From: Parvularcula marina
Lineage (GTDB): Bacteria > Pseudomonadota > Alphaproteobacteria > Caulobacterales > Parvularculaceae
Length of the DNA stretch: 64,000 nucleotides
Direction of reading: 5' to 3'
Assembly (NCBI RefSeq): GCF_003399445.1
Contig: NZ_QUQO01000002.1
Span: 1 to 64,000 of the forward strand
The notes under the pieces are model-generated. The model saw nothing but the letters and a program-made list of their open reading frames with translations, did no database searches and was not told the origin of the DNA. How positions within the stretch are numbered: position 1 is the first letter of the stretch; each line of letters starts with the position of its first letter. Made by a program: the position numbers and the translations under genes. Positions 16,579-38,766 of the stretch are shown one piece after another.

Positions 16579-16777
16579 GTCGCGCCTTTATCCTCGTTTG
16601 CTTTCCGAGACAGCACAATACCTTCGGCGGCGCGACCTCATCCTTTTAGTCGGCACTTCTAATTGAGCTATCTCTAGCGCGACTACCCAACATGCGTAGC
16701 GCGAGTCATCGCTTGTGGACAGCCGAGAGTTGCCCGGTCAGGATTGGGTTGGGGAAGGAATAGGCAGGAGGGGACCT

Positions 16778-19677: not shown

Positions 19678-20717
19678 TTAGTCCGCGGCCAAGGCCATGA
19701 ACCACTTCTTACCGACTTTTTTCTTTTCGACGCCAAGCTCTTGCCGAGCTCGATCGATTGTACGTTTCGAGAACCCCACTTTACTCGCATTCGAATAGAC
19801 ATCGTTGGAAGACACGTTACCCTCAGCAAGGGTGTTCTCAAGGAAGGTCATCGCTTGGTCGAGAAGTGAAGGAGATCCCTTCGTGCCTCCTGCCAATTCC
19901 TCTGCCGAGATTGGAGAACTACCTCGCCACTCGAATCTGGGTTGGTCGGACCCTGGAACTTCGACGAGCTCATACATGAAGCTCTCGCCGCGCTTACCGA
20001 TATTCGTTTTGGAGTGTGCGGCAACGATTAAGTTTGGTTGTTCCGGATGTCTTTCGACCATCAACATAGACCGGACGACACCCGCCACGTCGATTGCTCC
20101 CTGTCCGCGGTAAATCGCTTTCGAAGCATCGCCTTTTCTTAAATGACGTAAGACCAGAACAGCGGCGTCGACGGACCGGGCGGCACGGAGAATGCCGTAC
20201 AAGAATGGCCTGATCGTGGTGGGACTGTAGGGGTTTTTTTCACTATCCATATAGGCATAAAGAGTATCGATCACGATCACGATCACGATCACGATCACGA
20301 TCACGATCACGATCACGATCACGATCACGATCACGATCAGGGTAGGGTGGTATTTTTTTACCGTTGCCCTCATGCGCGTCAGACCATCACCAACCAATGG
20401 CTCGTATATGTACTGAAGACGGATGTTGTCCGGATTTCCACCCAAAGCATCGACTCGCGGTCTAATTGTGTGTTCAGGATCATCTTCGACACCGAAGTAA
20501 AGCACTTTGCCCTCGTCGACCCGGTCCTGGTCCATGATCAAGCCACCAGTTGAAATAACGGAAGCGATCTTCATTGCCAGAACGACTTGCCGACTCCGGG
20601 GTCACCCTCCAAAATTGTCATTTGCCTACGGGCTATAAATGGTTTCCACAGCCATTTGGTGATTTTGGGTTTGATGCTCGACAAGTCGCGATAGCGGGCT
20701 GGTTTGTGTCTCTTCAT
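19678..20717 (-). pseudogene. Replication AAA ATPase (RepA/DnaB-like P-loop), frameshifted
   Basis: Two frames make one P-loop ATPase. From ATG 20717 the first frame reads MKRHKPARYRDLSSIKPKIT and ends with Walker A EGDPGVGKSFWQ then TGA. One extra C after TTC would restore GKSFLAMKIAS and join the second frame (19678-20574, 298 residues), which continues MKIASVISTGGL, VLYFGVEDDPEHTIRPR, a Walker B strand and RHLRKGDASKAIYRGQGA, with a C-terminal winged helix (KVGFSKRTIDRARQELG). The stop and the second ATG overlap as ATGA, so coupled re-initiation is possible but would split the P-loop from the rest. The Walker B strand is expanded by a GATCAC microsatellite. The first ATG lies 4 bases after the primase stop, so both belong to one replication operon. 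Probably non-functional. Confidence 0.75.
20269..20340 (+). repeat. Hexanucleotide microsatellite (GATCAC), 12 units, inside the ATPase gene
   Basis: Eleven perfect GATCAC units followed by one GATCAG, 72 bases in all. On the coding strand they read GTG-ATC and give a run of Val-Ile pairs directly before the Walker B aspartate (VIDTLYAYMD). The period of 6 keeps the frame whatever the copy number. Related ATPases have a single short hydrophobic strand here, so about ten pairs look like slippage expansion. Confidence 0.95.
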
Positions 20718-20721: not shown

Positions 20722-21630
20722 TCATGACTCCAATTTTTTTAGAATTCTGGATACTTCGGAAACAAGCTTGGTTTCGTTCTTCCCGTGCTTTTGGATAAAG
20801 TGGGGCTGTTCCCAGACCGCAGATGCAATTTCGTCTGGAGACGCCCCGGCGTGATGAAGTGACGCCACAATCGCGTAGATGACGCCAGATCGATCACCAT
20901 CCACAGCATGCACATCCGTGCGTCTCAGCAGGTACCGAACTTTATCAGATAATTTTGTCCGGTACTTTCTCAGTACGTCTTTCCGGGTGGTCACTGACGG
21001 ATTCAATTTCCTTGTACTGACCTGCGCGTTCGAGACTATTGCCGTAGGAAAGTCATCCGTACTGAAGAAAATTGGCAGATCGTACGCCAACCTGACGAAG
21101 GGGCGGTCGTATTGCGGCTTGTGATTATACGTATACGGGATACGCATCATCTTTGTGATCGACCATCCATTCCTGCCAGAACCAGAACAGTAAGCTAGGG
21201 CCTTCGAGCGAGCTTCCGCTTCCTCAACGGGTATAAGCTCGTTCAAAAGCCACAATCCTTGATATCGCCCTGGTGAAGTCTCGATCAGCTGAGAAGGAAA
21301 AATCTCGAATTGATTTGGATCAGCGTCATCGATATCGACATGTAGATAGCACGTAGACAAAGCAAACTGACGCTTCCGTTGTGTCTGTGCAAAAACATGT
21401 GGACAGAAATAGAGGTCGAATTTTGTGCGCGGGTGATCACGAATAAATGAAATCATCCCTTCGTAGTCGTTTGTCTCAAAACACCGTTCGGCCCATCGGC
21501 CAGTTGAGCGGGCCATGGCTGCCAAAAATACATGGCCGCCAGGTTGGCCCTCATAGACCATTTCAAGAAATGGTTTGATTCGCTTCAGCCAGTGAGGCTG
21601 GGGCTTTTGGCGTCTAGTCTGCTTAGCCAT
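20722..21630 (-). CDS. Primase-polymerase-like replication protein (AEP/RepB primase type)
   Basis: 302 residues. The motif YLHVDIDDAD near residue 95 gives the hxDxD metal-binding pair of archaeo-eukaryotic primases; TSPGRYQGLWLL near 118 resembles the second motif, and MRIPYTYNHK near 160 the third. The C-terminal helical part (KVRYLLRRTDVHAVDGDRSG ... IASAVW) resembles PriCT-type domains. It is followed 4 bases later by the P-loop ATPase, a pair typical of plasmid or phage-satellite replication modules in tRNA islands. It would prime replication of the excised circle. It appears intact. Confidence 0.65.
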   Translation of the reverse strand: MAKQTRRQKPQPHWLKRIKPFLEMVYEGQPGGHVFLAAMARSTGRWAERCFETNDYEGMISFIRDHPRTKFDLYFCPHVFAQTQRKRQFALSTCYLHVDIDDADPNQFEIFPSQLIETSPGRYQGLWLLNELIPVEEAEARSKALAYCSGSGRNGWSITKMMRIPYTYNHKPQYDRPFVRLAYDLPIFFSTDDFPTAIVSNAQVSTRKLNPSVTTRKDVLRKYRTKLSDKVRYLLRRTDVHAVDGDRSGVIYAIVASLHHAGASPDEIASAVWEQPHFIQKHGKNETKLVSEVSRILKKLES

Positions 21631-21937: not shown

Positions 21938-22653
21938 CGATCGGGAAAATCCTTGGCGACCTGCCGTAGCAGGTGAAGGCTAATTAGCGCGTCGATTGGG
22001 AAAATGTGATCCGTCACGGCACGTATAAATGTATATAGATATGAGCTCGGATTATCTTGCCTGTCATAGCTACTAGTTTCAGCAGGATGCATACTCAGCC
22101 GACTACGAAACAGTTTCAGTAGCTCACTTCCAAGAGCCATCTCAAATTCAGTGCGATTTTTTCCTCGATCTGAGGCACGATCATCGAGTTCCGCTATCGT
22201 CTCTAATGCCCATTCATGCAGAAGCTCTAGCTGCCTTGAAAGATCCTTCAATTTAGGAGGCTTCGCGTTCATCAAGTTTGGCCAAACAGAGAGGAGGCCA
22301 AGCTTTTGCTCGGAAAGCACTGACTGAATTTTTTCGATAGGCTTGACGATATCAGTTTCTATACGTCTATATCGTTCGTTATTCGTTAGAGCAGCCGGAC
22401 CATCCTGTAGGCCTAAAGGGGAGGTGAGCGCGATTTTCAGGAAAGCTTTCGCTAGGACCCGAAGGTCCTCAGCAAGGTCTGTTAGGGGACTATTTTCTGG
22501 AAGCCCCAGTTTCCTTGCCAATCCAGACATCATGTCATCTTTAAACAGATCAATGTCAGGATGACGCCCCTCCGGATACTGGAACTCTGGGCAATACCAC
22601 AGTGTTTCAAGCCATTTGGTGTAGTACGGATTGTGCTGAGACTTTCTCAACAT
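21916..22653 (-). CDS. Hypothetical protein of the integration module
   Basis: 245 residues from ATG 22653, which has GGAG just upstream; it overlaps the integrase 3' end by about 47 bases, implying coupling. It begins MLRKSQHNPYYTKWLETLWY and is rich in charged helices (EKIQSVLSEQKLGLL, KDLSRQLELLHEWALETIAE). No signal peptide, membrane segment or known motif is visible. Its position between integrase and AlpA suggests a role in element maintenance or excision, but I do not recognise it. Confidence 0.6.
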   Translation of the reverse strand: MLRKSQHNPYYTKWLETLWYCPEFQYPEGRHPDIDLFKDDMMSGLARKLGLPENSPLTDLAEDLRVLAKAFLKIALTSPLGLQDGPAALTNNERYRRIETDIVKPIEKIQSVLSEQKLGLLSVWPNLMNAKPPKLKDLSRQLELLHEWALETIAELDDRASDRGKNRTEFEMALGSELLKLFRSRLSMHPAETSSYDRQDNPSSYLYTFIRAVTDHIFPIDALISLHLLRQVAKDFPDRSHANSA

Positions 22654-23758
22654 GGTCACTCCAACATTCTAATGAGGCTCGTTTCTCCTCGGCATAAGCA
22701 TATCGATTATAGGTTGCTGCGACACCGCTGACGATACCTGACTTGTGGTTCAGTACAGCCTCAATGATATGTGGGGCTGTACCGAGCTTAGCCAAGCCAG
22801 TGGCCGTAGTCCGTCGGAGGTCATGCAGTCGCCAGTTGGCCACACCAGAGGCTATATCGAGCCGCTTCTTAAGCCTCCCATACCCCGATATCGGACTCCG
22901 GCCTGTAGTGGTGAAGACGTAATCAGAGCCAAGGAAATTTGGGGCTAATCGTGTGATTGCAAGCGCCGACTCTGCGAGGGGAACCTCATGGGCACAACCG
23001 TTCTTGGCCTGATCGGCTGCGATCGTCCAAACACCTCTGCTGAAGTCCACATCGCTCCAACGCATTCCGCCGACCTCTGACCGTCTCTGACCTGTGAGAA
23101 TGAGCATTTGAACCAGCGGTCCGAACGGAAATCCTTCAGCTTCGGCGGCGACCCAGATCCGACCTAGTTCATTATCGGTCAGCACTCGGTCACGGGGGAC
23201 CTCTTTCACAATGGCTCGCGCGTTTGAGATCGGGTTGACCTCGACATATCCACGATCAAGCGCCCAGTTGAACAACTTTCGAATGTTCGCGAGCGTTCGG
23301 TTCACGCTAGCGCCATTACCTTTCGCACGAAGCTCGTCGAGCACATTGAATATGTCTCGGCGGGAAATGTCGGTAACTTCCCGGGCATCGAATTGAGAAA
23401 ATTTCTTGAGCCGAGAGATATAGTTGCGGACATCCTTGCAGTTCTCCCGCACGTGCAACTGGATAAACCTCTCACGGACTTCACCGAAAGAGGGGGCTTG
23501 CCGCTCGACTTCTGCTGTCAGCATCGAGATACTCAATTCATGAGCGCGCTTCCTTGCGCCGGCCAAGCTGAGGCGAGGGTAGTCGTCGAACTTTCTACGG
23601 ATATTCTTTCCATCCACTAGCTAACGAATATACCAGGATTTCGACCCATTCGGCTGGACACGGACGGCTAGATTCTTGCAAGCCGCATCAGCAACGAAGT
23701 AACGCTTCTCTTTGGGTTTCAGCCCCTGAATGGTCTTGTCTGTCAATCGAACTGGCAT
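22607..23758 (-). pseudogene. Tyrosine-recombinase integrase interrupted by an in-frame amber codon
   Basis: The frame from ATG 23758 reads MPVRLTDKTIQGLKPKEKRY then FVADAACKNLAVRVQPNG and SKSWYIR, then TAG (23621-23623), then LVDGKNIRRKFDDYPRLSLA onward to the natural end. Both halves are in one frame, so a single substitution separates the N-terminal arm-binding domain (DUF4102 type) from the catalytic part. The catalytic region keeps R (LTGQRRSEVGG), HxxR (RLHDLRRT), H/K (LNHKSG) and the Tyr (TYNRYAY). A GTG at 23617 could start a 336-residue truncated protein lacking most of the arm-binding domain. Without readthrough, excision from tRNA-Phe should be impaired. A sequencing error is the main alternative. 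Confidence 0.85.
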
Positions 23759-24189: not shown

Positions 24190-27100
24190 CTAAGAGTCGG
24201 GGCTGACTTCATACTTCGTCTGCTGATATTCTGCTAATTGAACCCATAGCGCTCCATGAAAACGTTCCGCAAGCACTCTAAGCATATCCGCATCGCGCTT
24301 TCCATTTTTCCTCCACATTTGCGCAGCTTCACTCTGATTAGGCTTGACTCTAAGCTCATCGTACATTCTGTAGGATAGCTTCGACCGCTCTAAGAGAAAC
24401 CGCGCTCGCAATCTTGTCACTGGCGAAAATGAAAACACTAGCGTTTCGGCTCTAGCTAGAAGTGAGAGTGCCCGCTTTAAATACAAAATCGAATCATGTG
24501 GGCGTTGCATGAGCCGCGTCATCATGGCTTCGATAACGTAGATCACCGCTCGCTCCCTGTCATAAATAACATGTGTACGGATTAACTCATCAAGCATTAG
24601 CCTGGCGTACTGTCCAAAGACACGATACTCCTGATTTCCCGAGTAGCTGCTTGTTTGCTCATGTTGAAGAGCATAATTCTCTAGCTTTGCCGCTACCCTG
24701 ATGGCGTTGCGCGTCGGGTGACCAGAAACGGAAAAACCTGGCTTGCCAGGAAACGCTCGGCGACCAATCATCCTTACGATTTCTGCAACCTCATAAACAG
24801 CAAAAGCGTGGGCGAATAAGTGCATTCCACCCTTGAAGTTGACTTCCACCCCGGTTGGACATCCAAATTCTTGGACAATCAATCTGTGAGCATTATAAGT
24901 TCTTAGCCACTCCTCCTTATCCAAAAGCCTCTGCAACTCTGCCGATGTTGCAATGATTTCTGCATAACGGTTGAGAACATTTATCGCATGCGAAACATCA
25001 GATATTCGCCCTGAAGAAATATATTCATTCAGTATGCATTTTATATCGCTAACGTTGGAAGCAATTGCGACTCCAAGCAACTCTCCCCCGCCACCACTTC
25101 TGGCCAATTGCTCAATTATTGAGACCTTTTTCGACGCATACTGAAGTAAATCATTACACAATTGAGTGCCTGCAGCTACCATTGATTCATCAATATTTAC
25201 GTCAGGAAATGACCGACTCTTGAACTGCTCAAGGCGATGATAAACCTTATCTCCAATGTTGGGAAATTCAAGGATTGCCTTGTCAAGTTCTTGCTTGTGC
25301 TGTCTCTCCAGAACGCCCAAGCTCACATGTCTGCTAGATGCAGCGTCAATGTCATGGCAGGTTGCAGAAGAGAAATTCAGATTGAGAGCTCTTAATGCCT
25401 GGCCTTCCGACAGCATAATGATTTCATAGGTAGATTTCTTTGAGTGCTCTGGAAACTTCGGGTCATCAAGTACAGATTGCTCTCTATTCGGCTCATCTAT
25501 GTCGGCGCCTTCCAACAATAACCAAGGACGCAAAAAGGCGGTAAGCAATTCTATCTTGGCCTGGTCACGGCCAAAAACCCTCGACAGCCTCCAATTTGGA
25601 ATATTTTCAAGTAAGCGAAGATATATGTCATTGAATAAATACTCCCAGAGGTCATAAGGCATGTGAGGGATCTGCAGCGTCTCTCCAGTTCTGACCAATG
25701 ACTTGTCCATCGACTTCGCACGTACTAATCCGATGGCTGACAACCCGTGTAAAATCGCTTGAAATAGTCGTCTCTGAGATCTCAATCCGTGACGCTCCGC
25801 CGGCTCTGCATGCAAAATATGGACTGAATACTGAGATAATGCTTCTTGACAGAGCAGCACGTGAATTGTTCTGAGAACAGAGAAGTTTTCACGATCAGAA
25901 AGAAATGAGTCTAAAAAGATCTGTCTGATACTACCGTGGCGGAACTCAAGTACTCTTTCTGGCGACCCCTGCTCAGCGATCAGATCATCGGGTATGCCAC
26001 GCCCTAAATAATCTGCATACCTTCCAAATGTAGCAATGGGCGCAAGCACAGATTGCATCACCCCAATCGAACTTAATCCAAAATCATCTTGAGCCACCTC
26101 TTTAAGATTGGCGCTTCTTTGTGCTTTAGGTCGTGCTTTAGCCCGAAAATCTCTGGTCAATCGGTTAAGTGTATTCGGCTGCACCCCATCTGGGGTAGCA
26201 ATTAGAGTTACCATCCAAAACCACCAGACGGGCTTATTGTCCTTGAGCATCTCCATGATTAAACGGGACACTTTTCGCGCTCTATTCTTCTCGTGTATAG
26301 AGGCTAGATATATGCTCTCGACACGCGTCCTTAATTGTTCCCTATCAAGCGACAAGCGGTCAGAAAGCGAGATGGCAGCATCGAGAATACGAAGAAGATT
26401 CTCCGATGTTTCAGACTTGATCGCCCTTTCTTTCCACATTATCAGCGTCTTTAGATTAGTATACTGATGCGATTCATCGATCTTTTTCATATCATTTTTA
26501 TGTGCCTTCGGAAGTATACTCGCTCTACTGATCAAATGAGATACTTTGCGATACCTCTGTAATCCATTTGCTGATTTTTCCGGTTCAGACTCGTCAGTCT
26601 CTTTCAAAGGCTTATTGCTGACGACCAAGATTCTATTCAATCTCCATGTGTCCAAGTTCACAGGCTCGCCATTAGGCATCATAGTTGGCGGCTCTAATAG
26701 TGCCGGAACCAGCGTAGTCAGGACATGATCGTCGCGGATGATCCGGAAAACTTCATGGAAAGTTGAATCACATTCCGTATGCCCCCAAAAAATGATGAGC
26801 GCTGGCTTGTTGACGAGCGAATTTCGGATCTCTTTGATCATTCGCGCCAATCGTGCATCACCAATTGGCACGGCAAGAGCTTCGGATGATGGCCATGATC
26901 GCTCATGGGCAAATTCATGGAGTATTTTGACGATCTGATGGTAGCTATATGGGGCAGCCGTCATATCTGCAGCACTCATGGGCAAACAGATAACCCTTAG
27001 GTCAAGGCCACTTATTTTGGGCACCATTTGACCAATATGCTTGGCTAGTGCCCCTTGTCCTTTCATCGTCGTTGGGGCGAAGACATTAAATACACGCTGA

Positions 27101-27837
27101 TCGCTATGCTCACAGAGCCACTGTTTGATCTCTTCGATCAGCGTTTCCCGATTCAACTTGAAAAATGGCCAGTTTCCTGGATCAAAAAAACCAGGCGTCA
27201 CAAAGTCATCGCTCGAGTTGGGCTGAGCAGGCTGCTCTACGTACACCCCGGTAGCAAACCATTTCTCAAAATTTTTAATGGCATCTTTTCCAGCGAAGCT
27301 CAAAGTAAGAAAATCACGGGGGTTTATATATTCCGTGTGTGCATATTCTGGAAGGTTATTCCGCCAATCACAGAGGACATTCGCGATCTCCTCAAAGACA
27401 CTCGCCGGAAGAGTTAGGGCGCTTTGTGACTTTGGGTTAAAAAATCTGTGTAAAGCAACTTCCTCGTCTCCTGTATTTATTGCCGAAACAGGTTTCTTAG
27501 AATTTGTAGTTCGTTCACATACGAAGCCCTCAAATCGGGAAGTCCCAGGCTCTGGTAGTTTCGCGGCATAAGCTCGGATGCGACTACAGATATCGCCGCA
27601 GTCCTCTGGCCTGACCACGTTTAGTGCAGCATTGATGCGAAGGACGATGCCCAAGCCATGTATGTCCAAAAACCGATCCAGGGGGTGTGGCTGGTGAGGG
27701 ACGCTACAAACGTGCCTTCCCTCCCTTAGGAGCTTTTTCAGGGCATCATAAGTTTCGCTAGTGGGTGCCGTTTGATTCGCGTCACACAAAGCCGCCCAGA
27801 GCTTTTGGCAACCCACTTCATAATTAATGCCTGACAT
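24190..27837 (-). CDS. Large unknown protein (1215 residues), possible degenerate STAND/AAA-type ATPase
   Basis: From ATG 27837 (MSGINYEVGCQKLWAALCDA) the protein has about 1215 residues. The open frame extends 40 codons further upstream but crosses the ribosome-binding G-tract, so the shorter form is preferred. A segment near residues 250-262 (VFNVFAPTTMKGQGALAKHI) sits where a P-loop could be but lacks GKS/T; PALIIFWGHTECDS near 345 resembles a Walker B strand in layout only. The remaining 800 residues are mostly helical, with a TPR-like character near the C-terminus. No signal peptide or membrane segment. The AT-rich composition and isolated position in an island suggest an accessory or defence protein. 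Function not recognised. Confidence 0.7.
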   Translation of the reverse strand: MSGINYEVGCQKLWAALCDANQTAPTSETYDALKKLLREGRHVCSVPHQPHPLDRFLDIHGLGIVLRINAALNVVRPEDCGDICSRIRAYAAKLPEPGTSRFEGFVCERTTNSKKPVSAINTGDEEVALHRFFNPKSQSALTLPASVFEEIANVLCDWRNNLPEYAHTEYINPRDFLTLSFAGKDAIKNFEKWFATGVYVEQPAQPNSSDDFVTPGFFDPGNWPFFKLNRETLIEEIKQWLCEHSDQRVFNVFAPTTMKGQGALAKHIGQMVPKISGLDLRVICLPMSAADMTAAPYSYHQIVKILHEFAHERSWPSSEALAVPIGDARLARMIKEIRNSLVNKPALIIFWGHTECDSTFHEVFRIIRDDHVLTTLVPALLEPPTMMPNGEPVNLDTWRLNRILVVSNKPLKETDESEPEKSANGLQRYRKVSHLISRASILPKAHKNDMKKIDESHQYTNLKTLIMWKERAIKSETSENLLRILDAAISLSDRLSLDREQLRTRVESIYLASIHEKNRARKVSRLIMEMLKDNKPVWWFWMVTLIATPDGVQPNTLNRLTRDFRAKARPKAQRSANLKEVAQDDFGLSSIGVMQSVLAPIATFGRYADYLGRGIPDDLIAEQGSPERVLEFRHGSIRQIFLDSFLSDRENFSVLRTIHVLLCQEALSQYSVHILHAEPAERHGLRSQRRLFQAILHGLSAIGLVRAKSMDKSLVRTGETLQIPHMPYDLWEYLFNDIYLRLLENIPNWRLSRVFGRDQAKIELLTAFLRPWLLLEGADIDEPNREQSVLDDPKFPEHSKKSTYEIIMLSEGQALRALNLNFSSATCHDIDAASSRHVSLGVLERQHKQELDKAILEFPNIGDKVYHRLEQFKSRSFPDVNIDESMVAAGTQLCNDLLQYASKKVSIIEQLARSGGGGELLGVAIASNVSDIKCILNEYISSGRISDVSHAINVLNRYAEIIATSAELQRLLDKEEWLRTYNAHRLIVQEFGCPTGVEVNFKGGMHLFAHAFAVYEVAEIVRMIGRRAFPGKPGFSVSGHPTRNAIRVAAKLENYALQHEQTSSYSGNQEYRVFGQYARLMLDELIRTHVIYDRERAVIYVIEAMMTRLMQRPHDSILYLKRALSLLARAETLVFSFSPVTRLRARFLLERSKLSYRMYDELRVKPNQSEAAQMWRKNGKRDADMLRVLAERFHGALWVQLAEYQQTKYEVSPDS

Positions 27838-27839
27838 AG

Positions 27840-27848
27840 CCCCCCCCC
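27840..27848 (-). repeat. G9 homopolymer acting as ribosome-binding region of the large unknown gene
   Basis: On the minus strand nine G residues stand two bases before ATG 27837. The run supplies a Shine-Dalgarno-like sequence and, being a long homopolymer, is prone to slippage that would alter spacing and expression. Confidence 0.6.
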
Positions 27849-28122
27849 AGCGCCCCCAACATCGATATGCATTTTTGCGCATCCGTGTGTCGGACCGCTT
27901 ATGCCCCAATGAAGGGAAATGCATAAATGAAGGCGGGTCAAGGCAAGGCATATGCATTTATGAAGATTTACACAAAACCGTCACAAAAAATAATCTGATC
28001 CGTTCTTTGGCAACCGTGCAGTCCAGCCATTTGTGGCGAAAATAGAAACCGGGCGCTGAAGAAAGACTGAACCCGTCAGCAATCAGGGCCCCTAACCACG
28101 CGCTTTCCAAGGGAGACCCATT

Positions 28123-28521
28123 ATGCGCAATATCCTTAAAAGCTCTGCAGCCGGCATCGCCGTCTTTTCCATTTCCATCTCAATAGCGGCAGCTCAAGAA
28201 TTCGATGTCGGCGAATGGGATCAGACTTATCAGTCTGAAGATACGATCATCGCTGGCATTGGCGGCGGTGACGTCAACATCGGTATCAATACAGTCAATG
28301 CGGAAGAACTGCGTGCGGATCGTTTCGAGCAAGTTTTCCAATCAGAAGATACGATCATTGCTGGCATTGGCGGCGGTGACGTCAACATCGGCATCAATAC
28401 TGTCGAGCTTGATGAACTGAATGCCGGAAGCTTTTCGCAACGATTCCAGGCAGAAGACACAATCATTGCTGGCATTGGCGGCGGTGATGTCGATATTGCC
28501 ATCAATACCATCAATCGTTGA
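28123..28521 (+). CDS. Secreted 36-residue-repeat protein, candidate curli-like structural subunit
   Basis: 132 residues: a signal peptide (MRNILKSSAAGIAVFSISIS ... AAAQ) followed by three repeats. The core EDTIIAGIGGGDVNIGINTV recurs exactly every 108 bases (starts at about 28240, 28348 and 28456), a strict 36-residue period, with a glutamine/aromatic-rich lead (FEQVFQS, FSQRFQA). Gly, Asn, Gln and alternating beta-prone residues recall curlin and other functional amyloid or beta-solenoid subunits, although the CsgA consensus is absent. Two downstream genes encode a small secreted protein and a CsgG/HfaB-like lipoprotein, which supports export as a surface fibre or anchor. AAGGGAGA provides the ribosome binding site. 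The amyloid role is inferred. Confidence 0.6.
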   Translation: MRNILKSSAAGIAVFSISISIAAAQEFDVGEWDQTYQSEDTIIAGIGGGDVNIGINTVNAEELRADRFEQVFQSEDTIIAGIGGGDVNIGINTVELDELNAGSFSQRFQAEDTIIAGIGGGDVDIAINTINR

Positions 28522-28532
28522 TCACAAGGGAT

Positions 28533-28553
28533 AGGGGGGCTCTGCCCCCCTTT
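28533..28553 (+). terminator. Intercistronic hairpin after the repeat-subunit gene
   Basis: GGGGGGC-TCT-GCCCCCC forms a 7-bp GC stem (28534-28550) followed by TTTATA, starting 12 bases after the subunit stop and ending before the next gene. The T-run is short, so partial termination or 3' mRNA stabilisation is likely. Either would give more subunit than secretion proteins. Confidence 0.6.
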
Positions 28554-28564
28554 ATACCAAGATC

Positions 28565-28918
28565 ATGAAACGCCTGATCGGTATTTCACTTGGGGCGATG
28601 GCGCTCGCGTCGTCTCAAGTCTCCGCGCAAGATGGTGAGGTTGCCCGTCTCGAGGCGGAATATCTCCGCGCATACGTAACGCCACTCGGTGTCAGGGGTG
28701 AAATCGATTTCGATCCAAATCAAATCCCGAATGCCTCAAACGGTAGCGTGTTTGATGATGGGACCAGTTTTCTCCTAACGGATTCGGTAATCGATGTCGG
28801 GTGCTCAGATATCGTAATTGGTGGGTCTGGCCAGGACGGCAGTTTAGGCCTGGCCCTGCCAAATGAAGAAATCAGCACAGTATTGGTCGATGTGACCATT
28901 GTTTCGTTCTGCGATTGA
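28565..28918 (+). CDS. Small secreted protein of the repeat-protein cassette
   Basis: 117 residues with a signal peptide (MKRLIGISLGAMALASSQVS, cleavage after AQ). The mature part contains two cysteines (VGCSDI and the near-terminal SFCD) that could form a disulphide, and a Gly/Ser/Asp-rich segment (IVIGGSGQDGSLGLALPNEE). It could be an accessory like CsgE/CsgF or HfaA, but I see no decisive motif. Its stop is 8 bases before the next start, so the two genes are coupled. Confidence 0.55.
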   Translation: MKRLIGISLGAMALASSQVSAQDGEVARLEAEYLRAYVTPLGVRGEIDFDPNQIPNASNGSVFDDGTSFLLTDSVIDVGCSDIVIGGSGQDGSLGLALPNEEISTVLVDVTIVSFCD

Positions 28919-28926
28919 GGTGGGGA

Positions 28927-30267
28927 ATGCGTATTTCGTCTATTGGCATCTTCTTATTTTTGATCGCCTCTCTGATGGGGTGCGCAGTTCCCTACTATAC
29001 AGAGGATAATCCGCCGCCTGAGGCAAAAAACCCCATCGAAGAAGAGGCTTGGGGTAAGCTTGGTCCATCCCCAAGACAAATACGGCCTGTCGAGCAATCG
29101 ATCGATGGGTTCGTCGCCTGTATTGGAAACGATATCGCAAGTCGGGCGCCCACGCAGGTCAATGAGATATTTCAATGGCCCATCGCGGACAAAACAGGGG
29201 CGCCTAAATTCCTGAAGAAGGCCTTTTCAGAAGGAGCGAGCGATTGGCTGCCAGGAGTCACAAACATGATGGGTCGTGAAAACTTCAAGGTCCTCGTGTT
29301 GAACCGTGGAAAGATCAATGCCGATGATGTCTCTAACATGCTCATTTTTTCAGGGGCGTGGACTGAATATGACCGCGTGACGCTATCGCAAGCGCGTGCT
29401 TTAAAATTGAAAATTATGGGGGCCGAACTTAGAGCTGGTGGAGACACTAGCTTTGACTTCATAGGCCTTGACCTAACGTACCGCACAAATAGTAGTAATC
29501 ATTATGAGGGGCATGTGGCAGTTCGTGCGCTTGTGGGGACCACCTCGGGTAATGTGGACCTTCTGTACGAAGATGGTGGTAATGGTATCGCGGTAAGTGG
29601 TCGATACAGAGACGTTGAGGGGCTCCATTCTACACAGCGGGCCCTTTACACTTATGGCATAACGCAACTGCTGGCGCGTGCGCGCGGCGTCGATCCATTG
29701 CATTGCGCTAGACAGCCCAATCAAGCGTTGAGTGCACGTGCCGACCTCATGCGCCAATACGATAAGCTGCCATTGGCTGAACGGCATATGCTTGCCCAGA
29801 GATGGCTACGTCACGAAAGTTTCTTCGAAGCGACCATAACGCCGAACTGGAACCAGGCCGCATCCATGGCCCTCTACCGTTTTCTGGTAAGTGTCGAACA
29901 AAAGCCAACTTATGACCTAAGCGCACCTCAATTTGTTTTGCTTGCACAGCGTGCAGAAGATCGGCGGTTAAATTTTCTTACTCGAGGCCGAGTGCCTGTT
30001 GAACCAGTTAAGGTCGAGCGCCCCGCCTTCCCTTACAATTGCCTAGGACGCCGGATTGAAGGTTTTGCTGTGGTCCAATTCGACATCACTGGCGCTGGCG
30101 GTGTCATCAATCCCTTCATACGTGAAGCTTCGCACCCCTGCTTCGCTGAAGCCGTGAGTGAATCCATTTCCAAATGGAAATATCCTGTTCACGTGGGAGT
30201 CGCGCCTTATGAGGTCACTCAAAGAAATCTCGAGCAGCGTTTTGAATTTCGATTCACAGATTTGTGA
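28927..30267 (+). CDS. CsgG/HfaB-like outer-membrane lipoprotein with C-terminal TonB-type domain
   Basis: 446 residues. The signal sequence MRISSIGIFLFLIASLMGC has a lipobox with Cys19. The middle (about 55-260) follows the CsgG/HfaB layout: FQWPIADKTGAP, a region where a protein of unstated regulons is read, FKVLVLNRGKINADDV, MLIFSGAWTEYDRV, SFDFIGLDLTYRTNSSNHYE and VAVRALV. The last 85 residues (PAFPYNCLGRRIEGFAVVQF ... ISKWKYPV) match a TonB C-terminal domain. CsgG-type pores export curli subunits; the extra TonB-like domain is unusual and could bind periplasmic partners. ATG 28927 has GAGGTGGGG upstream and is preferred to the in-frame TTG at 28915. The CsgG link is by pattern, not alignment. 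Confidence 0.55.
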   Translation: MRISSIGIFLFLIASLMGCAVPYYTEDNPPPEAKNPIEEEAWGKLGPSPRQIRPVEQSIDGFVACIGNDIASRAPTQVNEIFQWPIADKTGAPKFLKKAFSEGASDWLPGVTNMMGRENFKVLVLNRGKINADDVSNMLIFSGAWTEYDRVTLSQARALKLKIMGAELRAGGDTSFDFIGLDLTYRTNSSNHYEGHVAVRALVGTTSGNVDLLYEDGGNGIAVSGRYRDVEGLHSTQRALYTYGITQLLARARGVDPLHCARQPNQALSARADLMRQYDKLPLAERHMLAQRWLRHESFFEATITPNWNQAASMALYRFLVSVEQKPTYDLSAPQFVLLAQRAEDRRLNFLTRGRVPVEPVKVERPAFPYNCLGRRIEGFAVVQFDITGAGGVINPFIREASHPCFAEAVSESISKWKYPVHVGVAPYEVTQRNLEQRFEFRFTDL

Positions 30268-30544: not shown

Positions 30545-30594
30545 GATTGAAAATCCGCGTGTCGGTGGTTCGATTCCGCCCCTGGGCACCATTT
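30545..30594 (+). repeat. attR: truncated tRNA-Phe 3' copy
   Basis: Exact 50-bp copy of 6842-6891. The 5' half of the tRNA is absent, so this is not a functional tRNA but the displaced 3' end left by island integration. Confidence 0.93.
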
Positions 30595-30771: not shown

Positions 30772-33700
30772 TTAGTGGAGGAACTCCGCAAAGATATCCA
30801 TCAGCTCGGTCTTGGTGAAGTCGTCTGACGGAATGTCGAACGGGCCGACCTCCATGACCGGACGATCCATATCCATGATGGTCTTGTCGACGCCCGGCAC
30901 GAAAGGTTCGTCATATTTGTCGAAGCCATAGGTGAGGACTTCCTCATCCGTCTGCCAGAAGCCTTGGAAGTTCTTCGGCGTATCCGCAAACGGATTAAGC
31001 GAGAGGACTTCATCGAGCTCGAAATTGGTATTCGGGCTGACATCAAGAATGCTCAGGATACTGCCATCGCTGAAGGTAATCGACAGGCCATTGTCCGTCA
31101 TCAGAGTCGGCATCTCTGCGAACGGACCCGCAGCGATAAGGGCATCAATGCTGCCCAGGGTCGTGAAATCGTCCAGCGCCTCGAAGAAGTCCGCGGCACT
31201 GAAAGAACCAACACTGCCATCCGTCAGGACAATGTCGAAGCAGATCTGGTCTTCCTGATTGCCATCGAAATCGACAATGAAGTCGACCCCGAAATTGCCG
31301 GTGATGTCAGTGATGTTGCCGCTGGCATCCGTGGTCACGAGAATTTCGAAGACAAAGTCATCGGCGCCTTCTTCGCCATACATGATGTCAGTCCCTGAGC
31401 CGCTGACAAGCGTGTCATCATGCATCCCGCCATAATAGACGTTGAAGTTCGCGCCATCCGCACCGCCAAAGAGCAGGTCATCACCGTCACCCCCGTAAAG
31501 GGCATCATCTCCGTTATTGCCGAAGAGCGTGTCATTGCCTGCGCCGCCGAAGAGATTATCGCCGCCGGTATAGGTCAAGACGCCATCAATGACTTCGACG
31601 GACTGGAAGCCATTGTCACTGCCGCCGTCGATGAAATCATCACCGTCATTGCCGTGGACAATGTCATTGCCTGAGCCGCCCTGCAGGACGTCATTGCCAG
31701 CATTGCCGTAGAGGACATCATCCCCGGCGCTGCCGTCGATCATGTCATTGCCGGCGCCGCCTGCGACATAGTCATCGCCGCCTTCGCCATCGAGGCAGTC
31801 GTCATCAACCCCGCCTTCGATGGAGTCATTTCCATCCGCACCGAGAATGGTGTCGAGGCCTTCACCGCCAAGCAGCGTGTCAGCCGATGCGCCGCCATCG
31901 ATCTGGTCGTCACCGGCATCGCCGCTGATCACATCGAAGCCGTCTTCGCCGCGCAGGATGTCATCGCCATTACCGCCGGAAATCGTGTCATCATGATTGC
32001 CGCCATCGATGAAGTCATTGCCGTTGACGCCTTCGAGAACGTCATTGCCGTTCTCGCCGAAGATCTTGTCATCGCCATCATCGCCGAAGAAGCCCGGCTC
32101 GACGTCAAAGGCATCCGACCCCGAAATCGAGTCCGCGCCATTGCCGCCCAGCATGGTGTCATTGCCATGGCCGCCGCGGATATCATCGGCGCCGTCTTCG
32201 CCTTCGATGAAGTCATCATCATCATTGCCGTTCAGGTTGTCATCGCCTGCGCCGCCAAAGATCTTGTCATCGCCGGCACTGCCATCGATGTCGTCATTGC
32301 CGTCTTCGCCGAAGAGGATGTCTTCGTCCTTGCCGCCATCGATGTCGTCCGCACCGATACCGCCGAGGATCGTATCCTGCCCGTCCGAGCCCTGAAGATT
32401 GTCTTCGCCGCCTTCACCGAAGATGAGGTCATCGCCGTCATTGCCGGTGATGTCGTCGCCGCGGCCGGTTTCATCCCCGCCGACGATGATGTCATTGCCG
32501 GCATCCCCTTTGATGGAGTCGATCCCGGCTCCGCCAAAGAGAAGGTCGTCATCATTGCCGCCGCGCATGGTGTCGCGGCCATTGCCGCCCAGCATGGTGT
32601 CATTGCCGTCTTCACCGACGAGGCGGTCGGCCCCATTGTCGCCAAAGACGAGATCATCGCCGAAGCCTGCACGGATGATGTCGTCGCCTTCATCACCGCA
32701 GATCTCGTCATTGCCGGCGTTCCCGTAAAGCCGGTCACGCTCGGCACCGCCGGAGATCAGGTCATCACCCTTGCCGCCACGGATCGTGTCGACGCCGTCA
32801 TTGCCCTGCAGCTCGTCGTCGTCGTCGCCGCCTTCGATCGAGTCATCCCCGCCCTGACCAGCGATTTTGTCATTACCCGCATTACCTTCGAGCGTGTCAT
32901 TGCCGTCAGGCCCTTTGAAGATGTCCTTTCCGGCCGCATCACCGACGATAATGTCATCACCGCCCTGACCCTTGACGAGGTCATCGCCCTTACCAGCGGC
33001 GACCGTGTCATCGCCGCTGCCTGCGGTGACATCATCATCACCTGTCAGCGCATAGATCAGGTCATTGCCGCCGCGGCCGTCGATCCGGTCGCTGCCATAA
33101 AGATCTTCGCCCAGCCCCGGGAAGGTTTCCGCCGTGTCGTCACCGATAATGACACCGCCATTAAACGTGCCGGTGACGAGGGTGACGGTTGCGGTGTCCG
33201 TCCCGCCATTGCCGTCATCGACAAGGTAGGTGAACTGATCAACGCCCTTGAAGCCGCTATCGGCCACATAGGTAAAGCTGCCATCGCTGTTGAGCGTCAA
33301 CGTGCCATGAGAGACATCCGAGACTAGGCTCGTCGTGAGAACGTCGCTGGCGTCCACATCGGTGTCATTGTCGAGGACGTTCCCGGCAATGATCTCTCCG
33401 ACAGGGCTGTAGCAGTAATCGTCCTCGGCTTCGGGCGCGTCATTCACGCCTTTGATGGTGACTGTCACGGTCGCGGTGTCAAAGCCGCCATTGCCGTCAC
33501 TTACGGTGTATTCAAACGTGTCCGTCGCTGTCTCACCGACGGCCAGATACTCGAACTGGCCATTCGGATCATAGGTGAAGGTGCCGTCCACATTGAGCGT
33601 GACCGAGCCGATCGTCGCGCTGTCATCAAAGCTATCGACAGTCAGGACATCAGATGTATCCGGATCGGTATCGTTGGACAGGACGTTAATGGGTGCAGAC

Positions 33701-36700
33701 GGATTATCCTCATCGGTCACCGCCATATCATCATTGGCCGTTGGGACATCGTTCACGCCGCTGATCGTGACTGTCACGGTCGCCGTATCAAATCCGCCAT
33801 TGCCGTCACTTACAGTGTATTCAAACGTGTCCGTCGCCGTTTCACCGACAGCCAGATATTCAAACTGACCATTGGGATCGTAAGTGACAGTGCTGTCCAT
33901 ATTGAGCGTAACAGAGCCAGTCGTGCCGCTGTCATCAACACTGCTGACGGTCAGGACATCGGATGTATCCGGATCAGTATCGTTACCAAGCACGTCAATC
34001 GGCGCGGTCGGATTGTCTTCATCCGCCATCGCCACATCAACATTGGCCGTGGGCGCATCGTTCACGCCAGTGACCGTCACCGTGACGGTCGCGGTGTCGA
34101 CGACGGCGTCAAATGTCGCCCGGCCGAACAGGACATAGCTCTGGCCTGAGAGAATGCCGTTCGGCGTTCCCGACCTTGCGCCGATGAGGAGGTCGTCAAT
34201 GCCGTCCCCATTGACATCGCCGGCCGCGGAAATGGCATCACCAATGCGGCCCGCTCCCCCGCCGCCCTGGATGATGAAGCCGTTCGTCCCGTCGAGATCC
34301 GCGCGGGTATAAAGAGCCGAAAAACCACCAGCCTTCCCGAACAGAACATATGTCTGTCCGTCCGAGAAGCTCGACCCAGCACCATAGGCACCGATCAGCA
34401 GGTCATCATAGCCGTCGCCATTGATGTCCCCTGCATAAGAGACGCTTTCCCCGAGATTTTCAAATTGTGCGAGACCGCGGAAGATGAAGCCATTGGTGCC
34501 GTTGAGTGAGCTGGCATCGATGGTTGAAGAGAATGCCCCCGCCTGACCGAAGATCACATAGGCTTCGCCAGTACCGCTATTGACACGGCCCGTACCGACC
34601 ACAATGTCGTCGATACCATCGCCATTGATATCGCCAGCATTCGATGCGGAAACACCGTTGCGGAAGGACGTACCCCCCGTAAACGTAAATCCGTTGGTTC
34701 CGTTCAGCCCACTGACATCTATCGTAGAGCTAAAGGGCTGATCCGAACCGAACACAACATAATAGCGCCCGGCAATGCCGGAGATGACGATATCGTCGAT
34801 ACCATCCGCATTCACATCACCTGCATTCGAGACAGCATTGCCTGAGAGGTCGAAATTTGCGTTTGCTCCATTGACGGCAAAGCCGTTTGCGCCGTTCAAA
34901 GAAGACAGCTCGACACTGGCGCCGAAACTGTTGCCGCCGAACACGACATATGTTTTGCCGTTCTCAGCAAAACCATTGGAATCTGCAAAATTGGCCCCGA
35001 CGATAAGGTCGGAAAATCCGTCATTATTGACGTCACCGCCGCCCGAAACGGAAATGCCGCTTAAATCGAATCCGTTCGCACCGTTCAGGACAAACCCGTT
35101 CGTGCCATTCAGCGTGGAAAGATCAAGGACTGGCCCCAGCGGCGAGGTCGTGCCGAATACGACATATGTTTTGCCTGAAAGAGCGCCGTTCGGGGCAGCA
35201 ACATATGCGCCAACAATGACGTCATCGATGCCATCGCCATTTACGTCTCCGGCATTGGAGACCGAGAACCCGGTCCTGTCATCAACATTGATCCCGCGCA
35301 GCTCAATGCCGTTCGTGCCATCGATGCTGGAAAGCTCGAAAGCCGGGTCGAAGCCCATATCGGTTCCGAAGACGATGAAGGCGGATCCCGCCGAGTCGTT
35401 ATCATTGCTATAGTTCGGGGCACCGATGATAAAATCATCAATACCGTCACCATTGAAGTCACCGGCGGCGGAAACCGATACTCCCGCTTCGGACCGCTCC
35501 TGAGGGCCATTGATGACAAATCCAAGCGAGCCATCACCGCCATTTGCCGCAAACAGCGAAGAGAGAAGGATCAATTGCTCAAATTCACCAGCCGTCTGGA
35601 CTGTGCCACCGTCAGTCACCTGGTAGGTGAAGGTCTCGGTGGTGCTTTCCCCAACCGCCAGATAGTCAAACTGGCCGTTCGGGTCATATGTGAATGTGCC
35701 GTCGCTGTTCACCGTCAGCAGGGCTCCTGAAGCCAGCGTGATCTGCTGATCCACATTCGCTTCGTCGCCATTGACCGCATTTACCGTCAGAGGATCGCCG
35801 TCTGTGTCAGTATCGGGACCATTGCCGTTATCGACAAGGACATCCCCCATGACGGCGTTGTCTTCGTCGGTGGTGAACGCGTCATCTTGCGCAGTCGGCG
35901 CATCATTCACGCCCGTAATCTCGATCGTGACGGTCGTGGTATCCGTCGCGCCATTATTATCCGTGATCGTATAGGTGAACGTGTCGGTCGCGGTCTCACC
36001 AACGCCAAGATACTCGAACATGCCGTTGGGGTCATAGTTGAATGTCCCGTCCCCATTGCTGGTGATCAGGGCGCCGGCTGTGCTGGATGCGTCAAAGGCG
36101 GTGACACTGAACGTATCGCCCATATCCGGGTCGTAATCGTTGGAGAGGACATTCGCGGTGGTGAACGCCGTGTCCTCATCGGTCGCAAAGCCCATTCCGC
36201 TGTCATCGACCGCGACAGGGGCGTCATTCACGCCATTGATGAACAGGTTGAGGACAACACTATCCGTCGCGCCCTGGCTATCGGTCGCGGTGAGGCTATA
36301 GGTGAGTTCGAGTTGATCGCCCACCTGAAGGAAGTCGAATACACCCGGCCCAGACGAAAAGAAAACGACCATCTCACCTTCCGTCACCCCCGCACCGATA
36401 ATCGGATTACTGGCAGGCGACAGGTATGGGAGGAGCTGGGCATTCGACAGCGTACCCGCCTTGTCCCCTGATTGGACAACCCCTGTTATGGAGAGGTTGA
36501 CGACATCGGAGACATCAACGTCCAGAACATCAGGCATACTGGGGAAGCCCAGGGCGAACCCTGCGTTAAACGCATCTTCGGTGTTCGTGAACATATAGCC
36601 CTGCGGTACCGTGAACATCGGCGCGTCATTAACGCCGGTGATGGTCACGGTGACTGTCGCCGTATCAGTTGCCCCGTTATTGTCCGTGATCGTATAAGTG

Positions 36701-38766
36701 AAGGTGTCGGTCGTGCTTTCACCAACGGCGAGGTAATCGAACATGCCATTGGGGTCGTAGTTGAACGTGCCATCGCCATTGCTGGTGATCAGCGCGCCGG
36801 CCATGCTGGATCCGTCAAAGGCGGTGACGCTGAACGTATCCCCCAGATCCGGGTCGTAATCATTGGAAAGGACATTCGCGGTGGTGAACGCCGTATCCTC
36901 ATCGGTCGCAAAGCCCATGCCGCTGTCGTCGACGGCGACAGGGGCGTCATTCACCCCACTGACAATTGTGGATACAACGGCCGTATCAACGCCGCCATTT
37001 CCATCCGATACCGTGATCGTCAGATCGAAGGTCAGGACATCTCCCGCCTGCAGGAACTGGAAGAGCGGGTCGCCATTCGCGTTATAGGTGAGCCAGATTG
37101 GGCCAGAGTCGGTTTCGCCGGCCTCGATGACGGTCGCGCCGCCCCTAATTTCGAAATGGGAGAGAATTTCTGCATCGCTGACAACGCCTGCCTTGTCTCC
37201 AGACTGGGTGACGCCGGTGATCGACGCCGTCACCACGTCATTGACGTCAACATCGGTGATCTGGAAGGCATTCGGAAAGCCCAAGGGAGACAAGTTGAAT
37301 AAGTCTTCGTCCGGAACATAGGCGTTCAGGATTGTAAGGTCAGGCGCATCATTCACGCCGGTGATGTTCACCGTAACAGTCGCTGTGTCGGTGCCGCCAT
37401 TTCCGTCGGATACGGTATAAGTGAACGTATCGGTCGCCGTCTCACCTACGGCGAGATGATCAAACATGCCGTTGGGATTGTAATTGAACGTGCCGTCGCC
37501 ATTGCTGGTGATCAGAGCGCCAGCCGCACTGGTCGCGTCAAATCCGCTGACGGACAGAACATCCCCCATATCGGCGTCGGTGTCATTGGCCAGCACATTC
37601 GCGGTGGTGAAGGTGGTGTCTTCATTCGTCGTGAACCCCATTCCGCTGTCATCGACCGCATCAGGATCATCGTTCTCGCCAGTGATGTTAAACGTCACGA
37701 TTATGCTGTCCGACGCGCCTTGCGAGTCTGTGGCGGTGACCGTGTAGGTCAGGGTCAGGACATCGCCGGCCTGCAGGAAATCGAACCGTGTCGGATCATT
37801 ATCCGTACCATGATTAAATCGGAACACACCGCTCGGAGATGTGGTTTCAGTCGCGTCGATCAAGGGGCCGCCGTCATTACTGACAAATTTTGCGATGCTA
37901 AGTAGAAGCGCATCACTCAAGACGCCCGCCTTGTCACCAGACTGCACGACATTGGTCACTGAGCCTGTCACCACATCGCTGACATCGACATCAGTAACTA
38001 CAAATGCCGGGCCGCCAATATTCCGGCCATTATTGTTTGCGCTTTCAGTACCGTTGATGGTCGTGGCCGCGCCAATTTGCGGAGCGTCATTCGCGCCGGT
38101 GATAGTCACGGTCACAGTCGCGGTATCTGTAGCGCCATTGCCGTCCGTAATCGTATAGGTGAAGGTGTCTGTCGCGGTCTCTCCCACGGCGAGGTATTCG
38201 AACTGTCCGTTCGGATTATAGGTGACGCTGGTGCCGTTATTCGTCACGGTGCCGCCATTGGCGCCTTGCGTTATGGCGGTCACTGCATTCCCGGTTCCGT
38301 CATCATTGGCGAGAACAGATATCGTTGTGCCGGCATCCTCTGAAGTGGAGGCGCTGTCATCCATGGCATCCGCAGCGCCGGGTACAATAGGAACAAAAAT
38401 ATCAGCATACGGAAAAGAAGTAATGATGGTGTTTGACGTAATCGTGAACGCTGATCCTGCATTGAACGTGTTATAGGCGATTTCATTCGTCGGAATGATA
38501 ATGCCGCCACTATTGCCGACACCAACCATCCACAGGCCCGTGCCGCCATTCGACATGGTGAAGGACCGCATTTCGAGGGGGCCGGCGTAAGCGCTCGGAC
38601 CAGCGGGGATGCCCACAAAGGTGAATTCATCACCCTGGCCGACATTGATATTTCCATCATCGGTCGGCGAGGACATGGCGTTACGCGGTCCGCCAAAAGG
38701 GGCGGGGGCCGCGGCAAAGGCGCTCCAGATGCTCTCAAACGTCGCCCAGACTACAAAATTGACCAT
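30772..38766 (-). CDS. Giant VCBS-repeat/FG-GAP propeller/RTX surface protein (2664 residues)
   Basis: Probably a type I-secreted adhesin. After an N-terminal domain of about 150 residues, VCBS/cadherin-like repeats recur (each ends FTYTxxDGNGxxDTATVTVT and ITGVNDAP). Near residues 1055-1555 lies a seven-repeat FG-GAP region (GDxNGDGIDDxxIGA), an integrin-alpha-like seven-bladed beta-propeller with Ca-binding loops, set within one VCBS unit. Two more VCBS repeats follow, then about 30 RTX nonapeptides (GGxGxDxxx) that fold on calcium outside the cell. The C-terminus (SDDFTKTELMDIFAEFLH) is an uncleaved-secretion-signal type. No N-terminal signal peptide. The ABC/MFP/TolC exporter is not in the window. 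A GC-rich palindrome lies 125 bases upstream. Role: adhesion or biofilm, by family. Confidence 0.85.
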   Translation of the reverse strand: MVNFVVWATFESIWSAFAAAPAPFGGPRNAMSSPTDDGNINVGQGDEFTFVGIPAGPSAYAGPLEMRSFTMSNGGTGLWMVGVGNSGGIIIPTNEIAYNTFNAGSAFTITSNTIITSFPYADIFVPIVPGAADAMDDSASTSEDAGTTISVLANDDGTGNAVTAITQGANGGTVTNNGTSVTYNPNGQFEYLAVGETATDTFTYTITDGNGATDTATVTVTITGANDAPQIGAATTINGTESANNNGRNIGGPAFVVTDVDVSDVVTGSVTNVVQSGDKAGVLSDALLLSIAKFVSNDGGPLIDATETTSPSGVFRFNHGTDNDPTRFDFLQAGDVLTLTYTVTATDSQGASDSIIVTFNITGENDDPDAVDDSGMGFTTNEDTTFTTANVLANDTDADMGDVLSVSGFDATSAAGALITSNGDGTFNYNPNGMFDHLAVGETATDTFTYTVSDGNGGTDTATVTVNITGVNDAPDLTILNAYVPDEDLFNLSPLGFPNAFQITDVDVNDVVTASITGVTQSGDKAGVVSDAEILSHFEIRGGATVIEAGETDSGPIWLTYNANGDPLFQFLQAGDVLTFDLTITVSDGNGGVDTAVVSTIVSGVNDAPVAVDDSGMGFATDEDTAFTTANVLSNDYDPDLGDTFSVTAFDGSSMAGALITSNGDGTFNYDPNGMFDYLAVGESTTDTFTYTITDNNGATDTATVTVTITGVNDAPMFTVPQGYMFTNTEDAFNAGFALGFPSMPDVLDVDVSDVVNLSITGVVQSGDKAGTLSNAQLLPYLSPASNPIIGAGVTEGEMVVFFSSGPGVFDFLQVGDQLELTYSLTATDSQGATDSVVLNLFINGVNDAPVAVDDSGMGFATDEDTAFTTANVLSNDYDPDMGDTFSVTAFDASSTAGALITSNGDGTFNYDPNGMFEYLGVGETATDTFTYTITDNNGATDTTTVTIEITGVNDAPTAQDDAFTTDEDNAVMGDVLVDNGNGPDTDTDGDPLTVNAVNGDEANVDQQITLASGALLTVNSDGTFTYDPNGQFDYLAVGESTTETFTYQVTDGGTVQTAGEFEQLILLSSLFAANGGDGSLGFVINGPQERSEAGVSVSAAGDFNGDGIDDFIIGAPNYSNDNDSAGSAFIVFGTDMGFDPAFELSSIDGTNGIELRGINVDDRTGFSVSNAGDVNGDGIDDVIVGAYVAAPNGALSGKTYVVFGTTSPLGPVLDLSTLNGTNGFVLNGANGFDLSGISVSGGGDVNNDGFSDLIVGANFADSNGFAENGKTYVVFGGNSFGASVELSSLNGANGFAVNGANANFDLSGNAVSNAGDVNADGIDDIVISGIAGRYYVVFGSDQPFSSTIDVSGLNGTNGFTFTGGTSFRNGVSASNAGDINGDGIDDIVVGTGRVNSGTGEAYVIFGQAGAFSSTIDASSLNGTNGFIFRGLAQFENLGESVSYAGDINGDGYDDLLIGAYGAGSSFSDGQTYVLFGKAGGFSALYTRADLDGTNGFIIQGGGGAGRIGDAISAAGDVNGDGIDDLLIGARSGTPNGILSGQSYVLFGRATFDAVVDTATVTVTVTGVNDAPTANVDVAMADEDNPTAPIDVLGNDTDPDTSDVLTVSSVDDSGTTGSVTLNMDSTVTYDPNGQFEYLAVGETATDTFEYTVSDGNGGFDTATVTVTISGVNDVPTANDDMAVTDEDNPSAPINVLSNDTDPDTSDVLTVDSFDDSATIGSVTLNVDGTFTYDPNGQFEYLAVGETATDTFEYTVSDGNGGFDTATVTVTIKGVNDAPEAEDDYCYSPVGEIIAGNVLDNDTDVDASDVLTTSLVSDVSHGTLTLNSDGSFTYVADSGFKGVDQFTYLVDDGNGGTDTATVTLVTGTFNGGVIIGDDTAETFPGLGEDLYGSDRIDGRGGNDLIYALTGDDDVTAGSGDDTVAAGKGDDLVKGQGGDDIIVGDAAGKDIFKGPDGNDTLEGNAGNDKIAGQGGDDSIEGGDDDDELQGNDGVDTIRGGKGDDLISGGAERDRLYGNAGNDEICGDEGDDIIRAGFGDDLVFGDNGADRLVGEDGNDTMLGGNGRDTMRGGNDDDLLFGGAGIDSIKGDAGNDIIVGGDETGRGDDITGNDGDDLIFGEGGEDNLQGSDGQDTILGGIGADDIDGGKDEDILFGEDGNDDIDGSAGDDKIFGGAGDDNLNGNDDDDFIEGEDGADDIRGGHGNDTMLGGNGADSISGSDAFDVEPGFFGDDGDDKIFGENGNDVLEGVNGNDFIDGGNHDDTISGGNGDDILRGEDGFDVISGDAGDDQIDGGASADTLLGGEGLDTILGADGNDSIEGGVDDDCLDGEGGDDYVAGGAGNDMIDGSAGDDVLYGNAGNDVLQGGSGNDIVHGNDGDDFIDGGSDNGFQSVEVIDGVLTYTGGDNLFGGAGNDTLFGNNGDDALYGGDGDDLLFGGADGANFNVYYGGMHDDTLVSGSGTDIMYGEEGADDFVFEILVTTDASGNITDITGNFGVDFIVDFDGNQEDQICFDIVLTDGSVGSFSAADFFEALDDFTTLGSIDALIAAGPFAEMPTLMTDNGLSITFSDGSILSILDVSPNTNFELDEVLSLNPFADTPKNFQGFWQTDEEVLTYGFDKYDEPFVPGVDKTIMDMDRPVMEVGPFDIPSDDFTKTELMDIFAEFLH

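Follow-up and report, generated by a model that had tools for sequence, protein, structure and literature searches.

A three-gene set beside the right att site of a tRNA-Phe island in Parvularcula marina: a candidate surface-protein export cassette with a CsgG/HfaB-like lipoprotein

The 64,000 nucleotides of Parvularcula marina DNA analysed here (contig NZ_QUQO01000002.1, positions 1 to 64,000; hereafter the window) raise the question of whether a compact set of three genes on the + strand, at 28123-30267, belongs to one of the described surface-protein systems or is merely similar to them. The first-pass annotation had called it a curli/Hfa-like cassette composed of a three-repeat secreted protein, a small secreted protein and a lipoprotein, and open reading frames of these three kinds are indeed found at these positions. 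Gene 1 (28123-28521, +; 132 aa) encodes a secreted protein, in which a signal peptide (residues 1-24, cut between AAA and QEF) is followed by three 36-residue repeats. Gene 2 (28565-28918, +; 117 aa) encodes a small secreted protein with two cysteines, which, judged by its sequence, likewise carries an N-terminal signal peptide. Gene 3 (28927-30267, +) encodes a lipoprotein of 446 aa counted from the ATG, which is distantly related to CsgG/HfaB and ends in a TonB_C-like domain; an in-frame TTG lies upstream of this ATG, at 28915. The gap between the stop codon of gene 2 and the start of gene 3 is 8 bp, and GAGGTGGGGA immediately precedes the gene 3 ATG. Between genes 1 and 2, a GC-rich hairpin with a short T run is located at 28533-28551 (+); the surrounding stretch 28519-28566 folds with -22.2 kcal/mol (z -2.9), and a consensus terminator scan made no call at the hairpin. 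It is a possible partial terminator or mRNA-end stabiliser, and the product of gene 1 could thereby perhaps be the most abundant one.

The repeats of gene 1 have a period of exactly 36 residues and are present in three copies: repeat 1 (28237-28344, +), which consists of the EDTIIAGIGGGDVNIGINTV core and a linker, repeat 2 (28345-28452, +) and repeat 3 (28453-28518, +), which comprises the core only. They were independently recovered as a family of 108-nt direct repeats (D9). When repeats 1 and 2 are compared, five synonymous and two non-synonymous base changes are found in the core of 22 codons, but two synonymous and 17 non-synonymous changes in the linker of 14 codons, which argues that the core is constrained at the protein level and that the linker is drifting. 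Thus, the spacing and the nearly invariant core described in the first-pass annotation are borne out, as is its view that the repeat lies outside the curlin consensus: gene 1 has no match to PF07012, and the test is valid since the genome's own curlins match this family at 4.6e-23 and 4.2e-26. No convincing Pfam or NCBIfam family was found for gene 1, and no relatives were detected in 62 family genomes and 385 class genomes, in IMG/VR, or among plasmids and phages. A pattern scan of GTDB contigs also returned none; its patterns lay outside the repeat core and the scan is therefore blind to relatives sharing the core alone. Gene 1 and the gene 3 domain are both missing from nine other searched genomes of the genus. 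One match to gene 1 in another genome (G031, E 7.6e-4) was dropped, as the fasciclin-like and beta-barrel-like open reading frames at that place lack such repeats. The AlphaFold model of gene 1, calculated from a single sequence, has a mean pLDDT of 38.9 and is too poor for judging the fold; at this low confidence it draws a strand, a GGGD turn and a strand for each repeat.

The lipoprotein encoded by gene 3 carries its lipobox cysteine at residue 19 (LMGC; 28981-28983, +), followed by a CsgG/HfaB-like domain (approximately residues 55-260; 29089-29706, +) and a TonB_C-like domain (residues 365-431; 30019-30219, +), the latter assigned by Pfam and by comparison with solved TonB C-terminal domains. 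The TonB_C match is the sole Pfam match of the protein and falls narrowly below the cut-off (E 3.7e-5; 24.5 bits with a cut-off of 24.6). That the lipoprotein is CsgG/HfaB-like had been proposed from its letters, but a profile search of the protein itself gave no direct match: in a whole-genome search with the CsgG family PF03783, C1:909850 alone was matched and gene 3 was not; gene 3 does not match the NCBIfam HfaB model (NF037935, an equivalog with a cut-off of 300 bits); and a profile comparison with gene 3 as a single sequence was not significant. The support is indirect but strong and comes from relatives. An order-wide search yielded two true relatives (L020 and L029), and the alignment with these two (A1), used as query, led to 14 loci from other Proteobacteria; the resulting family alignment (A3) has 11 members including gene 3. 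Family-wide matches to gene 3 mostly span only the TonB_C tail, and matches in two genomes (G029 and G353) were dismissed as chance.

A3 keeps the lipobox cysteine in nearly all rows, the motifs CLG..I, I.D.T, SGAWTQDD and GDF, the segment EGPQ.AQRRIAEAA and a final cysteine; the lipobox cysteine of gene 3 aligns with a cysteine in nine of the ten other A3 rows and in all rows of alignment A7. The HfaB model is matched weakly by eight of the 11 members (best 1.7e-5), and PG_binding_1 by six of them, at the position occupied in gene 3 by TonB_C. In a profile-profile comparison (hhalign), the A3 domain matches the HfaB profile with a score of 81.6 and a probability of 97.2%, co-linear over 227 columns, and the highest score from 20 column shuffles was 17.5. 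The same domain matches a second HfaB-like group (96.9%, score 78.3) and the CsgG profile (93.5%, score 56.9); three additional CsgG-like proteins (the csgG2 set) were not matched in the same test. Since the profile of its family matches HfaB far above the shuffles, gene 3 is, on the strength of these alignments, a divergent protein of the CsgG/HfaB superfamily, whose N-terminal domain after the lipobox is homologous. A structure model of gene 3 built from three sequences has a mean pLDDT of 49, too low for judging a channel fold.

In phylogenetic trees, the CsgG clade, the HfaB clade and a clade of DUF4384-bearing proteins are all separate from each other, and gene 3 falls outside both the CsgG and the HfaB clade. 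Instead, it shares one clade (support 99-100/95-97) with lipoproteins of a cassette type found in one family (f140, see below) and with stand-alone lipoproteins. Its branch is very long (2.9-3.5 changes per site) and its exact placement is unsure; it lies slightly nearer to lipoproteins without repeat-protein neighbours, and a grouping with the f140 cassettes is not rejected (p-AU 0.158). The label "curli/Hfa-like" consequently stands as a statement of likeness and not of membership. HfaB-like lipoproteins without repeat-protein neighbours occur at four Hydrogenophaga/Burkholderiales loci (L064, L068, L069 and L074), and those of L068 and L074 lie near genes that look, by eye, DUF4956- or VTC-type. 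Genes for caspase-like peptidases are found near HfaB-like lipoprotein genes in L033, L098 and L099, and an OmpA-family gene in L098, L101 and L102.

Searches with A3 and then A6 revealed nine further alphaproteobacterial loci, in which an HfaB-like gene lies beside one or more genes for secreted proteins with repeats of approximately 35-40 residues, and eight of the nine add a two-cysteine protein. Four genomes of one family (f140; L095, L104, L105 and L106) each encode two repeat proteins (170-182 aa and 95-98 aa), a two-cysteine protein (104-115 aa) and an HfaB-like lipoprotein. In L091, L097 and L098, the gene order is repeat protein, two-cysteine protein, HfaB-like lipoprotein, and the same three kinds of gene are found on plasmid AZO_p4 of Azospirillum lipoferum 4B (L102; WP_044553250.1, WP_162488447.1 and WP_162488445.1), with two extra genes before the lipoprotein gene. 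In L096, the HfaB-like gene is preceded by genes for repeat proteins, and a search for a two-cysteine protein at this locus found none; in L101 (A. ramasamyi), the lipoprotein is present, and DUF4399 proteins are encoded upstream instead. The cassette lipoproteins tested match the HfaB model at 5.7e-8 to 0.0015, with only 18-32 bits (the four f140 proteins at 5.5e-4 to 5.7e-8), and PF03783 matches the L098 lipoprotein below the cut-off (E 0.0057). The gene set of the window has the content of these recurrent cassettes, namely a secreted repeat protein, a two-cysteine protein and an HfaB-like lipoprotein, and because nine further loci pair HfaB-like genes with secreted repeat proteins, it is apparently a divergent representative of a recurring class rather than a one-off. 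An open reading frame that spans 488 aa or more and contains numerous similar repeats was also seen directly 3' of the HfaB-like gene in L091 (L091:1917-3380) and is a candidate for a long cargo.

The likeness in gene content is only partly mirrored by the sequences of the secreted proteins. Repeats from the other cassettes are mutually related (set A versus set O, 19.9 with shuffles up to 13.8; L098 versus the rest, 33.8), but the gene 1 repeat scores 9.0-11.0 against them, inside its shuffles, in a test whose positive control (A versus O) passes. Against eight proteins encoded at the HfaA position, the gene 1 repeats reach a score of 13.3 in hhalign with a probability of 1.1% over 17 columns (shuffles up to 11.7), and whole gene 1 and gene 2 stay inside the shuffles. 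Among the searched sets, the repeat thus has no detectable relative in curlins, HfaA or the other cassettes. The two-cysteine proteins of the cassettes form a loose family, which gene 2 resembles by position and weakly by sequence. Both of its cysteines lie on the C-terminal side (GC..IVIGG ... DVTIVSFC), and its C-terminal half scores z 3.5 against the two-cysteine profile of L091, L097, L098 and L102 (0 of 400 shuffles), but only z 2.1-2.3 against the f140 proteins; these values are suggestive and not proof, because the pairing was spotted only after looking. The corresponding hhalign comparison with the two-cysteine proteins of other cassettes was not significant, and no relatives of gene 2 were found in 398 genomes of the order or in plasmids. 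Gene 2 was also examined for a single degenerate copy of the gene 1 repeat, but the similarity was not significant and the idea was dropped.

The island on which the cassette had been placed is real. A tRNA-Phe gene (6813-6888, +) serves as its integration site, and the left att copy (6842-6891, +; family D13) covers the 3' part of this tRNA, corresponding to its last 47 bp and three further bases. An exact duplicate of these 50 bp (50/50 identical) is located at 30545-30594 (+), 23.7 kb away and 277 bp past gene 3, making the cassette the final element before the right att site, just inside the island. Between the two copies lie genes for a tyrosine integrase (22607-23617, -; PF00589, 1.8e-18), a RepB-like primase (20722-21630, -; PF16793, 6.9e-7) and an AAA_25 (RepA-like) ATPase (19678-20574, -; PF13481, 5.5e-10), as well as a type III restriction-modification pair, a DrmD-like SNF2 helicase and a DUF2779 protein. 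The last three, the DUF2779 protein being weakly Cas4-like, make up a defence block on the left side of the island (7173-18253). Within the AAA_25 reading frame (20256-20351, - strand), tandem CGATCA hexamers (family D11) encode an Ile-Val run, which sits at a position where one might look for a Walker-B-like strand and could be a length-variable tract. A further island gene (24190-27957, -), whose product of 1255 aa has no convincing family match, is divergent from the cassette and has a 165-bp upstream region in common with it. Just beyond the right att copy, a protein of 2664 aa is encoded at 30772-38766 (-), in which VCBS-, FG-GAP- and RTX-like repeats can be seen by eye.

Taken together, the three genes probably constitute a horizontally acquired cassette for the export of surface proteins. 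The products of genes 1 and 2 are exported by Sec, to judge by their signal peptides. The gene 3 lipoprotein would most likely oligomerise as an outer-membrane channel, which its TonB_C-like tail, standing where many relatives carry a peptidoglycan-binding domain, may hold to the cell wall, and through which the unfolded gene 1 product would most likely pass. At the surface, the repeats, predicted to adopt a strand-turn-strand arrangement, might stack to form a fibre, coat or anchor rich in beta structure, and gene 2, with its probable disulfide, may act as a pilot protein or else as a minor or capping subunit. The functional amyloid or holdfast-anchor role and the beta-solenoid fold suggested in the first-pass annotation are conjectural. 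Export via a CsgG-type channel is the reading that agrees best with both the gene content and the precedent of HfaABD, in which the placement of HfaA and HfaD at the outer membrane requires HfaB (PMC6707917).

This precedent could also be taken literally, with gene 3 placing genes 1 and 2 on the surface as an anchor that tethers exopolysaccharide instead of forming fibres. HfaB is the closest named family to the relatives of gene 3, and HfaABD, too, comprises three genes, two of which encode surface proteins (PMC6707917); however, genes 1 and 2 have no profile similarity to HfaA, the Hfa partner protein that was compared, no polysaccharide gene is present among the classified genes of the island, and gene 3 does not group with the HfaB clade, so that such an anchor appears unlikely. 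Alternatively, gene 3 could be a lipoprotein associated with the wall that retains the CsgG fold in part without forming a channel, with genes 1 and 2 acting in the periplasm or stabilising the envelope; this is a similarly improbable reading, which keeps some weight because many relatives of gene 3 stand alone. For most relatives found with the A1 query, the stretch read contains no neighbouring repeat-protein gene, several of these relatives end in PG_binding_1, and gene 3 itself branches beside stand-alone lipoproteins. Yet nine loci couple such a lipoprotein with secreted repeat proteins, and standing alone would be compatible with a channel. It is very unlikely that the set encodes an interbacterial effector with its own exporter, as proposed for MafB (toxin) and MafA (exporter) of Neisseria: here too, the genes lie on an island with defence genes, but gene 1 is a small repeat protein with no toxin-like domain match, and no immunity-like gene was seen.

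In their survey of 2012, Dueholm and colleagues regarded CsgG profile matches outside curli as likely paralogues from a wider family, and they considered that curli have been transferred horizontally only to a minor extent (PMC3521004). The gene 3 lipoprotein family resembles two described systems, curli and the holdfast anchor, and a search of the open-access literature found no paper on the cassette class described here. It may be, and we propose this tentatively, that Alphaproteobacteria possess one or more additional, as yet undescribed export branches of the CsgG/HfaB superfamily, with cargoes of approximately 35-40-residue repeats and a disulfide-containing partner, and that the window carries a mobile form of it with a novel repeat, in which case gene 1 would be a new kind of subunit for a surface fibre or anchor, transferred between bacteria on a tRNA island. 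If this is true, the recurrent cassettes with their new repeat cargoes would offer candidate substrates to test for CsgG paralogues, and the version on an integrated island would suggest that such export systems do travel.

Curli consist of CsgG, CsgF, CsgE, CsgA and CsgB, with CsgH in Alphaproteobacteria. With them, the set shares a CsgG-superfamily lipoprotein and a secreted repeat protein, but its subunit lacks the curlin repeat, and gene 2 has no CsgE-, CsgF- or CsgH-type match in Pfam or NCBIfam. The genome carries a separate, genuine curli operon at C1:909k (L025, G000:C1:903000-918000), in which CsgG, a small protein of CsgF-like appearance and three repeat proteins of the curlin type (552, 487 and 204 aa) were seen. 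In Neisseria, MafB is exported by an oligomeric outer-membrane lipoprotein that its discoverers likened to CsgG, and the genes reside on genomic islands (PMC7738311). By their descriptions, MafA/MafB and the present set have in common an island-borne outer-membrane lipoprotein proposed as the exporter of one partner; the Neisseria cargo, however, is a toxin. HfaABD of Caulobacter combines, in the same way, an HfaB-like lipoprotein with two secreted partners, and the profile match extends over the whole domain, whereas gene 3 belongs to a separate clade, has a TonB_C-like tail and is carried by an island. The AZO_p4 cassette of A. lipoferum 4B differs in its repeat sequence and in a lipoprotein annotated as DUF4384 and followed by an OmpA-family gene, but like the set of the window, it unites a repeat protein, a two-cysteine protein and an HfaB-like lipoprotein.
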